Below are positions 2,995 through 7,803 of a stretch of 28,086 bases of DNA, in pieces; position 1 is the first letter of the stretch; every line of letters begins with the position of its first letter. Where the stretch lies: positions 1 to 28,086 of IMG/VR virus record IMGVR_UViG_3300021964_000390. One strand, 5' to 3'. The stretch comes from a virus. A program made the position numbers and the translations under genes. The notes below the pieces were generated by a model that saw only the letters and a program-made list of their open reading frames with translations, did not search any database and was not told the origin of the DNA.

Positions 2995-3459
2995 ATGTCC
3001 GTAATACAGGGAAAAGCCTATTGGGCTTCAATAGTAAATCCAAACACTACATTTGATAGTGATGGAGTATACAGTATAGATGTTAGTTTAGATGCTAAGA
3101 ATAAAAAGATAGCTGAGACTGATGGTCTAACTATTAAAAATAAAGGTGATGACAGAGGAGACTTTGTTAGCATTAAAAGAAACGTAAGAAGAAAGAATGG
3201 TGACTTTAATACCAAACCTACTCTTATGGATTCTCAAAAGAGAAACATGAAGGATACATTAATAGGTAATGGTTCTGAAGTTAGTGTGTTATACTCTACT
3301 TATCAGTGGGAGTTCAAAGGAAGGTCTGGTACTAATGCAGACTTAAGAGCTGTACAGGTAACTAACTTGATACCTTATCAAAATGATATGGAAGATGCCT
3401 TTGATGTAGTTCCTGATGGCTTTGTGGCTAAGGAAGATTCTGAAGTATCATTTGCTTAA
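2995..3459 (+). CDS. Single-stranded DNA-binding protein, T7 gp2.5-like
   Basis: A 154-residue protein with the pattern of phage gp2.5-type proteins: an N-terminal segment GKAYWASIVNPNTTF, short beta strands (YSIDVSLD, DFVSIKRNV), a central NGSEVSVLYSTYQWEF strand pair, LRAVQVTNLIPY, and an acidic C-terminal tail (NDMEDAFDVVPDG onward) ending in an aromatic residue (SFA). In T7 the acidic tail with a terminal Phe binds polymerase and helicase; here the Phe is next to last. It would coat ssDNA at the fork and help recombination. The gene has its own perfect sigma70 promoter and a strong ribosome site, so high expression is likely, as expected for a stoichiometric ssDNA binder. Confidence 0.85.
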   Translation: MSVIQGKAYWASIVNPNTTFDSDGVYSIDVSLDAKNKKIAETDGLTIKNKGDDRGDFVSIKRNVRRKNGDFNTKPTLMDSQKRNMKDTLIGNGSEVSVLYSTYQWEFKGRSGTNADLRAVQVTNLIPYQNDMEDAFDVVPDGFVAKEDSEVSFA

Positions 3460-3475
3460 CAATTAAATAAAGGAC

Positions 3476-3529
3476 TATGGGGAGTTCTGGCTAAAACCAA
3501 CGTACAGTAATCAGCTTGGTCTCCCCATA
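3476..3529 (+). promoter_or_regulatory. Structured RNA element (two-part stem) covering the exonuclease leader; terminator or translational regulator
   Basis: A perfect 9-bp outer stem pairs TATGGGGAG (3476-3484) with CTCCCCATA (3521-3529). Directly inside its 3' arm a second stem pairs ACCAA (3496-3500) with TTGGT (3516-3520), with an 11-base one-sided bulge (3485-3495) and a 15-base apical loop. The bulge segment GGCT (3489-3492) can alternatively pair with AGCT (3513-3516), allowing a pseudoknot-like or switching fold. The downstream sequence is AT-rich but not a clean T-tract, so it is not a classical intrinsic terminator. The stem ends eight bases before the next start codon, which has no Shine-Dalgarno site. 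I do not recognise a known riboswitch class. Confidence 0.6.
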
Positions 3530-3537
3530 TTTATTAT

Positions 3538-4398
3538 ATGAAAAAAAATATAGATACTTTAGTAGATGATATATATTCTTTGTTTGATTTAAACACAGAA
3601 AATAATATAGATGAAAAAAATTTAGATAAACATTTAAATTCTTTTACTGAAGGTGTTGTAGAAACAATAAAGATTTTATTAAAAGAAAAACATAATAGTA
3701 AAAGAAGCTTAAGACTATCAGCTATAGGTAAACCAGATAGGCAACTATGGTATGATAATAATTTAGAAGTTAAGAAAACAACTTTAAGTCCTTCACTTAG
3801 AATTAAATTTTTCTATGGTCATTTACTAGAAGAAGTATTAATTTTATTTTCTAGATTAGCAGGACATAAAGTTACAGGTCAACAAAAAGAAATAGACATT
3901 GAAGGAGTTAAAGGACATCAAGATTGTTTTATAGATGATGTTCTTGTTGATTGTAAGAGTGCTTCTGGTAAAAGTTTTTTAAAGTTTAAAGAAAATAGAC
4001 TATCTACTGATGACCCTTTTGGTTACATACCTCAAATATCAGCTTATGCTGAAGGTAATGGTGTAGATGAAGCTGCTTTTCTTGCTATTGATAAACAAAA
4101 TGGTGAGATTTGTTTAACTAAAGTACATTCTGTGGAGATGATTAATGCAAAAGATAGGGTCAAACATCTTAAAAATGTTATGCGAGATGGTAAACCACCT
4201 GTTAAATGTTACAGTGACATTGCTGATGGTATGTCTGGTAATAGGAAGCTTGCTATTGGGTGTGTTTACTGTAGCCATAAAAGAAAATGTTGGGAAGATG
4301 CTAATGGTGGTCAAGGGTTACGTGTTTTTAAGTATGCAAATCATAATAGATTTCTTACGCAAGTTGCAAGAACTCCTGACGTTCAAGAAATAACTTAA
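3538..4398 (+). CDS. Cas4/RecB-like PD-(D/E)XK exonuclease
   Basis: A 286-residue nuclease that probably plays the role of the T7 gp6 exonuclease (host DNA degradation, recombination, end processing). Motifs: GHLLEE (94-99), HQDCFIDD (127-134, D129), the catalytic VDCKS (D138, K140), then GYIPQISAY (162-170, with Q166 and Y170), as in RecB/Cas4 nucleases. The C-terminus has CVYCSHKRKC (C242, C245, C251; C-x2-C-x5-C), the three-cysteine half of a Cas4-type iron-sulphur site. The fourth, N-terminal cysteine expected in the SAIG-K-x-DRQLWY segment is Pro66 here, so a standard 4Fe-4S cluster may be absent. The first ATG is used because no other in-frame start precedes the domain; it has no ribosome site and lies just behind an RNA stem. 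Confidence 0.82.
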   Translation: MKKNIDTLVDDIYSLFDLNTENNIDEKNLDKHLNSFTEGVVETIKILLKEKHNSKRSLRLSAIGKPDRQLWYDNNLEVKKTTLSPSLRIKFFYGHLLEEVLILFSRLAGHKVTGQQKEIDIEGVKGHQDCFIDDVLVDCKSASGKSFLKFKENRLSTDDPFGYIPQISAYAEGNGVDEAAFLAIDKQNGEICLTKVHSVEMINAKDRVKHLKNVMRDGKPPVKCYSDIADGMSGNRKLAIGCVYCSHKRKCWEDANGGQGLRVFKYANHNRFLTQVARTPDVQEIT

Positions 4399-7258: not shown

Positions 7259-7287
7259 TTGACTTTTATATTTAGGTAGTGTATAAT
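7259..7287 (+). promoter_or_regulatory. Near-consensus sigma70 promoter for hsp20
   Basis: TTGACT (7259-7264), optimal 17-base spacer, TATAAT (7282-7287). Only the last base of the -35 box departs from consensus. It lies in the short gap between the reductase/small peptide and hsp20, and with the terminator at 7776 frames hsp20 as its own transcription unit. Confidence 0.8.
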
Positions 7288-7333
7288 TACATTATGAGTG
7301 CTAGAAATGGACTCGTTTTTTAACTTGCTTAAC

Positions 7334-7339
7334 AAGGAG
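7334..7339 (+). promoter_or_regulatory. Shine-Dalgarno site that fixes the hsp20 start
   Basis: AAGGAG, six bases before the ATG at 7346. The frame is open to a GTG at 7298, but that codon would sit only about ten bases past the -10 box, at or next to the transcription start, so 7346 is chosen. Confidence 0.7.
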
Positions 7340-7345
7340 ATAAAT

Positions 7346-7762
7346 ATGGTTAATTTTGAAGTAGATACATTTGCACGACAAGCTATTGGATTTGATAGAT
7401 TGTTTGATGTAATGAATAACATAAGAGGGTCAGATGTAAACTATCCACCTTATGATATTATTAAAGAAGATGAAGAAACTTTCCTGATTGAATTTGCTTT
7501 ATCAGGATTTAGTAAAAGTGATTTAAATATTGTAGTTAAAGAAAATAATTTAACTATAGAAGGTACTTATGGTAAAGATATTAAAGAAGATGTTCTACAA
7601 TATTTACATAAGGGTATAGCGAAGAGGTCTTTTACTAGAGATTTTGTTCTAGCAGATACGTTACACGTTGAAGACGTTACATTCAGCGAAGGTATATTAA
7701 GATTAACTCTTAAACAAAGTATACCTGAAGAACAAAAACCTAAAAAGATAAAAATTAATTAA
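7346..7762 (+). CDS. hsp20: Small heat shock protein, Hsp20/alpha-crystallin (IbpA-like)
   Basis: 138 residues. An N-terminal segment (ARQAIGFDRLFDVM) is followed by YPPYDI and an alpha-crystallin domain of about residues 35-125 with IEFALSGFSKSDLNI, NNLTIEG, LHKGIAKRSFTRDFVLAD, and EGILRLTL; the C-terminal tail has the I-x-I motif (IKI) used in oligomer assembly. This is an ATP-independent holdase that binds unfolding proteins. In T4-like cyanophages a related Hsp20 is a known auxiliary gene, suspected to aid scaffolding or virion assembly; the same role is inferred here. It has its own promoter and terminator, so expression is probably independent and strong. Confidence 0.93.
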   Translation: MVNFEVDTFARQAIGFDRLFDVMNNIRGSDVNYPPYDIIKEDEETFLIEFALSGFSKSDLNIVVKENNLTIEGTYGKDIKEDVLQYLHKGIAKRSFTRDFVLADTLHVEDVTFSEGILRLTLKQSIPEEQKPKKIKIN

Positions 7763-7775
7763 GTTGTTATAAGCA

Positions 7776-7803
7776 GGGGGTTGAAATATACCCCCATTTT
7801 TTT
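7776..7803 (+). terminator. Intrinsic (Rho-independent) terminator after hsp20
   Basis: GGGGGT (7776-7781) pairs with ACCCCC (7790-7795) around an eight-base loop, followed by A and seven T (7797-7803). It is the clearest terminator in the window and the only GC-pure stem in an AT-rich stretch. The next gene starts 27 bases later without an obvious promoter, so read-through must supply the downstream genes. Confidence 0.85.

Follow-up and report, generated by a model that had tools for sequence, protein, structure and literature searches.

Genes and signals around the ssb-exo junction

The window analyzed here, the whole 28,086-nucleotide stretch of viral DNA, carries on its plus strand a gene for a gp2.5-like single-stranded DNA-binding protein (ssb; 2995 to 3459), identified by tblastn with 39 to 49% identity to pelagiphage genes annotated as encoding ssDNA-binding proteins. 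It is followed on the same strand by a Cas4-like exonuclease gene (exo; 3538 to 4398), which matches the phrog_1990 Cas4-domain exonuclease family (E = 4e-43) and whose homologues carry the annotation Cas4-domain exonuclease. Directly 5' of ssb, and overlapping the end of the preceding gene, is a plus-strand sigma-70-type promoter sequence with an extended -10 (TTGACA-18-TATAAT; 2936 to 2965); by its match to the consensus at 12 of 12 positions, this promoter is the likely source of the ssb-exo transcript.

The plus strand between the two genes can fold into a hairpin spanning 3476 to 3529. Its outer stem, P1, pairs TATGGGGAG (3476 to 3484) with CUCCCCAUA (DNA CTCCCCATA; 3521 to 3529) over 9 bp with no mismatches, and both the sequence and covariation support these arms. 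Inside P1, an 11-nt bulge, UUCUGGCUAAA (3485 to 3495), precedes a second stem of 5 bp, P2, formed by ACCAA (3496 to 3500) and UUGGU (DNA TTGGT; 3516 to 3520), which encloses a 15-nt loop, CGUACAGUAAUCAGC (3501 to 3515). The CUG of the bulge (DNA CTG; 3487 to 3489) can pair through 3 bp with the CAG of the loop (3505 to 3507), these being the 5' and 3' strands of a pseudoknot. An 8-nt spacer composed only of A and U (3530 to 3537) separates the hairpin from the exo start codon; the corresponding spacer is 7 to 12 nt long in the measured ssb-exo relatives.

A first-pass annotation made from the letters of the window had drawn this same fold, with P1, P2, bulge-loop pairing, and a stem ending 8 nt before the ATG at 3538, all of which recur in our reading of the sequence and in the comparison of 61 sequences described below. 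The window alone did not prove that fold, since its folding z score of -1.8, with 7 of 200 shuffles equally good, is only moderately above chance and P1 is the only one of the three pairings present in its computed minimum-energy fold; it was the comparative data that settled the fold. The annotation had also stated that exo lacks a Shine-Dalgarno site. This is correct for a site at normal linear distance, which 22 of the 27 window genes possess and exo does not, but AAAGGA (3469 to 3474, plus strand) lies one base 5' of P1 and was missed because only the interval between the stem and the ATG had been considered. An upstream mini-ORF starting in P1 (ATG 3477 to 3479, MGSSG and a stop codon) was rejected: its frame and length are not conserved in relatives, and AAAGGA is too near its ATG for usable spacing.

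The element is a conserved and covarying pseudoknot

With DNA patterns derived from the core, we found at least 61 distinct copies of the element in public viral contigs, and the family is larger than the copies listed. When 61 distinct sequences were aligned (alignment A1) and the structure was scored with the pseudoknot included, 98.4% of pair cells were kept, compared with 79.0% after shuffling, the covariation score was 0.542 compared with 0.165, and two-sided changes numbered 178 compared with 47.3. Controls in which the pairing partners were slid reached at most 51% paired and a score of 0.108, about a fifth of the real one. Ten of the 15 pairs vary on both sides among these sequences, which are related to one another, were selected for a P1 of at least 5 bp, and have some core letters fixed by the patterns; in one pattern search, P2 and the pseudoknot partners C and R were unconstrained. 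The first-pass annotation had proposed a cis-acting RNA element and suggested a covariance check on homologous junctions; the proposal is borne out by these compensatory changes.

P2 takes the form of 11 different helices in the 61 sequences, each perfectly paired with Watson-Crick pairs only. In the pseudoknot, 24 sequences have CUG/CAG and 37 have CCG/CGG, with its two strands concordant in 61 of 61 and no exceptions. Each type is represented in the ssb-exo group as well as in the gp32-uvsX group (L382), indicating that the change between them probably happened more than once. G-U pairs are absent from all 488 cells of P2 and the pseudoknot and occupy 7 of the 427 cells of P1. The core consensus is GUUCYGGCNAAAA-P2-CNNNCRGUANYCAGC-P2'-C, in which UUC, GG, and AAAA of the bulge are invariant in the 61 sequences, partly as set by the search patterns. 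The pseudoknot and its loops hold the invariant core letters, a pattern also seen in small aptamers, and the core is aptamer-like in being both conserved and covarying. In copies that overlap a DUF3310 gene, changes in P2 alter amino acids yet preserve pairing. Judged from this alignment, the RNA structure at 3476 to 3529 is almost certainly real, and the element is, on the same comparative grounds, an H-type pseudoknot whose core is closed by the variable stem P1.

The element occurs once per record at diverse phage gene junctions

No Rfam 15 covariance model (riboswitch, ribozyme, STAXI, manA, wcaG, and others) matched the element in searches that included short regions with permissive thresholds, and only far sub-threshold chance matches fell on it. 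A known RNA family was thereby ruled out, and the first-pass suggestion that the element is an unrecognized one holds; measured against Rfam 15 and the open literature searched, the family appears to be new. With our covariance model, R1, each of 22 records of up to 160 kb, some of which may be incomplete, yielded a single significant copy, and nothing rose above noise in 22 further records from plain-hairpin relatives and cultured phages. As R1 gave no second site above noise in the plain-hairpin relatives, we discarded the idea that the core had moved elsewhere in these genomes. Searching cultured phages by blastn with two cores returned only chance hits of 18 to 26 nt. A weak R1 match of 18 bits in HTVC103P, the only one among 10 cultured records, lies within a gene on the antisense strand of that gene and was taken as chance. 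A bacterial origin was also rejected: a pattern that demanded AAAAYC, and so would miss some variants, gave 18 hits in bacterial genome contigs, but no element with P2 inside a proper closing stem. Some of the hits resemble P-loop-type coding sequence, and R1 found nothing in three of the genomes concerned. An association with tRNA genes was dismissed, as tRNA-Trp adjoins the copy in L317 only.

The element is found at the ssb-exo junction and at the gp32-uvsX junction of T4-like phages (with UvsX identified by phrog_97 and the upstream gene annotated in a cultured relative as single-stranded DNA-binding protein). It also lies in leaders, one of hsp20 and one of an SSB-like gene (L385), at the junction of DUF3310 with DNA polymerase, and at several junctions where the genes are unknown, one such context being inside a reading frame (L340 and L388). 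The element is on the sense strand in every context with identified flanking genes. Copies often start 2 to 17 nt after the upstream stop codon (after ssb and gp32 and in L277, L317, L344, L383, and L385) and many are at most about 35 nt from the downstream start codon, making the upstream and the downstream neighbor both candidates for the gene concerned. On the evidence of these contexts, the family is common to unrelated phages and situated at gene junctions.

The hsp20-leader copy lies a few tens of bases 3' of a promoter-like sequence. In the hsp20 leader of the window itself (7259 to 7349), a strong promoter-like site is followed by a short hairpin, GAGT...ACTC and then G and six T residues, which occupies the place where other phages have the pseudoknot element; a clear intrinsic terminator (GGGGG...CCCCC followed by T7; 7776 to 7795) lies 3' of the same hsp20. 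In the DUF3310-DNA polymerase copies, the element is translated as the DUF3310 C terminus (ESSGKNPQAVTSGVSQ). It is in frame in the 3' end of DUF3310 in L288, L303, L320, and L327, producing an extra C-terminal tail, and DUF3310 of the cultured phage 023Pt_psg01 is without the element segment.

A hairpin joining the halves of a likely split ribosome-binding site

Scans of viral contigs recovered 39 loci by the exonuclease and 71 by the SSB. Among the close and middle relatives that possess an ssb-exo junction, almost every one has a hairpin between the ssb stop and the exo start, with an interior that is the 50-nt core, a plain short loop, or an unrelated long loop. Plain hairpins thus stand in for the core in close relatives. 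In the near-identical pair L015 and L013 (99.4% nucleotide identity in ssb and 98.2% in exo), L015 has the core and L013 a 5-nt loop; the swap leaves the outer stem in place, together with AAAGGAC and the 8-nt spacer.

We screened 50 ssb-exo junctions, two of which (L035 and L065) had no Shine-Dalgarno site by the rule of our script. In the remaining 48 distinct junctions, the site and the AUG are separated by 10.4 ± 1.8 nt (SD) outside the hairpin; the linear distance ranges from 37 to 66 nt, and the hairpins, some with unrelated interiors, are 24 to 59 nt long. A purine-rich site adjoining the stem is retained in nearly all ssb-exo relatives. The junctions thus combine two features of a split ribosome-binding site, a Shine-Dalgarno sequence directly 5' of a hairpin with the start codon a few nucleotides 3' (1 nt from AAAGGA and 8 nt to the AUG in the window) and a folded spacing that stays constant despite variable hairpin length. 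Since the outside distance is constant and the hairpin and linear lengths vary, the most likely role of the hairpin is to bring together the halves of a split ribosome-binding site, and this geometry leads us to consider such a site likely in the ssb-exo lineage. Folding of the element would take about 54 nt out of the spacer in the ssb-exo mRNA, so that the distance from the Shine-Dalgarno sequence to the start codon would shrink from 63 nt in the linear sequence to about 9 nt. An intervening hairpin in T4 genes 38 and 25 likewise cuts the spacing from 22 to 5 nt and from 27 to 11 nt, respectively (PMC3014915).

The retention of the AAAGGA-hairpin-AUG geometry across ssb-exo relatives upholds the link to exonuclease translation initiation made in the first-pass annotation. 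The regulator of a toxic nuclease that it had proposed is unsupported in that form, as a split site joined by the hairpin explains the missing Shine-Dalgarno site; for this reason, the basic effect of the hairpin would probably be to permit translation of the exonuclease and not to hold it down. AU-rich leaders can at times initiate without a Shine-Dalgarno site, a point against the split-site reading. The spacer role does not extend to the family as a general function, since a normal Shine-Dalgarno site lies downstream of the element in the gp32-uvsX and hsp20 contexts.

Of the alternatives, a transcription terminator or attenuator in the ssb-exo interval, whose partial stop would leave SSB in excess over the nuclease, fares best, even if we consider it unlikely. 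There is a consensus promoter upstream of ssb, and the distant relatives L065 and L078 to L082 have a true terminator at this junction (a stem and a T-run of at least 6), which in most of them is immediately preceded by a purine-rich GGAG. The first-pass annotation had raised an attenuator, an idea that survives as this rival, and had at the same time denied the stem a T-tract. That denial was too strong, as the tail of the window, TTTATTAT, has 6 T residues in 8 nt; yet T-richness is not conserved (GACACATT in L039). The hairpin and its spacing are still there in lineages that have no T-rich tail (GACACAUU and AACACAUC) and in the L039/L119 lineage, which has lost the T-run; this favors initiation geometry over termination. 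Many gp32-uvsX hairpins also lack a T-run, and termination leaves the conserved core unexplained.

Other arrangements were seen at these junctions. The junction hairpin is absent from the L067 to L077 group; in L067, L069, L071, L072, and L077, exo apparently starts at TTG, and pairing is possible between its GGATTGGGAG site and CTCCCATTCC, which lies in the coding sequence about 75 nt farther downstream; this suggests a sequestered ribosome-binding site. Of the 69 gp32-uvsX junctions with a recognized gp32, 57 carry a hairpin. A second, different hairpin follows gp32 in L200, L216, L247, and L256, with a conserved core of approximately GATTCA...TGTCAA (alignment A2), and may represent a further family of RNAs. 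Two diverged phages with gp32-uvsX, L187 and L202, have in common a third hairpin of complex form, CCCCCCAGGCTT...AGCTCAATACCGGGGGG.

Possible functions of the pseudoknot core

Since a plain loop can take its place, the core is not needed for the spacer role and represents an exchangeable extra. As a less certain step, the pseudoknot core could be recognized by a small molecule or a protein that tunes exo initiation. Alternatively, it could act on the mRNA junction in general, which we consider because the same core occurs at other gene junctions without a spacer role. Regulatory recognition by the core is plausible, with a chance slightly short of even. No switch platform, that is, an alternative pairing with a terminator or Shine-Dalgarno sequence, was seen by eye in the exo or uvsX leaders, P1 being stable alone and having no evident alternative pairing with AAAGGA. 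Taken together, the comparisons lead us to favor, with somewhat better than an even chance, a folding spacer of a split site with a pseudoknot core that serves as a recognition site, tuning initiation or acting on the mRNA junction. A cis function in initiation ranks first among the roles considered.

An intercistronic stability or processing element, which would protect the 3' end of an abundant ssb mRNA or provide an RNase site that separates the exo or uvsX mRNA, seems slightly less probable than a terminator. In each of the two unrelated phage groups, the SSB stop codon is directly followed by a hairpin, and other copies start 2 to 12 nt after a stop codon (L277, L317, L344, L383, and L385). 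For this purpose, however, a plain hairpin would suffice, the invariant loop letters would have no reason, and an element useful at many junctions would not be expected in one copy per record.

Nearly as probable, and still unlikely, is a once-per-genome RNA that acts in trans or on RNA polymerase, as a decoy against host RNA-targeting defense or a put-like signal, placed where the early transcript tolerates it. A trans-acting or decoy role is also allowed by the single significant copy in each record, the diverse and unrelated neighbor genes and positions, including within coding sequence, and the rapid gain and loss between near-identical phages. Against it, many copies lie close to a start codon and no host partner is known. 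Type III antitoxins are tandem pseudoknot repeats without a closing stem, whereas the element has one and occurs once per record. A broader possibility that we hold tentatively is that the element belongs to a one-per-genome class of phage RNAs that spread between unrelated lineages into junction hairpins and coding ends, with a core that senses an infection molecule or neutralizes host defense and that was recruited here as the spacer of a split site.

More doubtful is a protein operator, in which the phage SSB or another phage protein would bind the pseudoknot and repress the next cistron, as at the T4 gp32 leader. T4 gp32 nucleates on its leader pseudoknot (PMC535899), two unrelated SSB genes lie directly 5' of the element, and the L385 copy is in the leader of an SSB-like gene. 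The first-pass annotation had named the upstream SSB product as a possible binder, which it may be, though the evidence does not point to it specifically; the same core does follow the unrelated gp32. Nevertheless, gp2.5-like proteins and gp32 are unrelated in sequence and the core is nearly identical, the hsp20 and DUF3310-polymerase copies have no adjacent ssb, and near-identical ssb genes exist with and without the core. An element acting as folded single-stranded DNA at a replication or recombination site is highly improbable: the lack of G-U pairs in P2 and the pseudoknot, the single copy, and the nearby replication genes would fit, but the element keeps to the sense strand wherever flanking genes are identified, uses some G-U pairs in P1, and replaces transcribed hairpins.

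Comparison with known systems and significance

The closest parallel to the favored split site, the split sites of T4 genes 25 and 38 (Nivinskas et al. 1999; Malys and Nivinskas 2009; reviewed in PMC3014915), also lies at phage intercistronic junctions, with a hairpin between the Shine-Dalgarno sequence and the AUG that shortens an over-long spacer to about 5 to 11 nt. The T4 spacers are 22 to 27 nt long with simple hairpins, whereas those described here are 37 to 66 nt long, have a conserved pseudoknotted core, and belong to unrelated genes. The T4 gene 32 operator (PMC535899) shares a leader pseudoknot associated with the gene of a phage SSB and with AU-rich RNA downstream, but it is upstream of ssb itself and a closing stem is not described; our element is between ssb and the next gene and has a highly conserved core. 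The HMP-PP (thiS) riboswitch (PMC6478431) is similar in having an aptamer-like conserved core in a terminator-type stem, whereas our element has no Rfam match, metabolic gene, or evident switching partner.

Among other structured RNAs, the STAXI motif (RF01728; PMC2864571) is a pseudoknot near ssb and DNA-handling genes that possibly functions as single-stranded DNA, but it occurs in tandem copies, and its covariance model does not match our single-copy element. The manA and wcaG motifs (PMC2864571) are structured leaders in marine T4-like phages, with manA also found 5' of ibpA-type (hsp20) genes; the element has no match to RF01745 or RF01761. The HK022 put RNA (PMC9378689) is likewise a small phage RNA in cis within early transcripts, but it suppresses pausing and termination through RNA polymerase binding, and the element has no sign of such action.

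A covarying, sequence-conserved 50-nt RNA that is absent from Rfam 15 and from the cultured phages searched, and that is common to podovirus-like and T4-like marine phages, points to an RNA-level function in ocean viruses. The ssb-exo junctions, with the same flanks around either a plain hairpin or the knotted core, provide a natural series in which to test what length of spacer a hairpin can bridge within a ribosome-binding site and what the core contributes.
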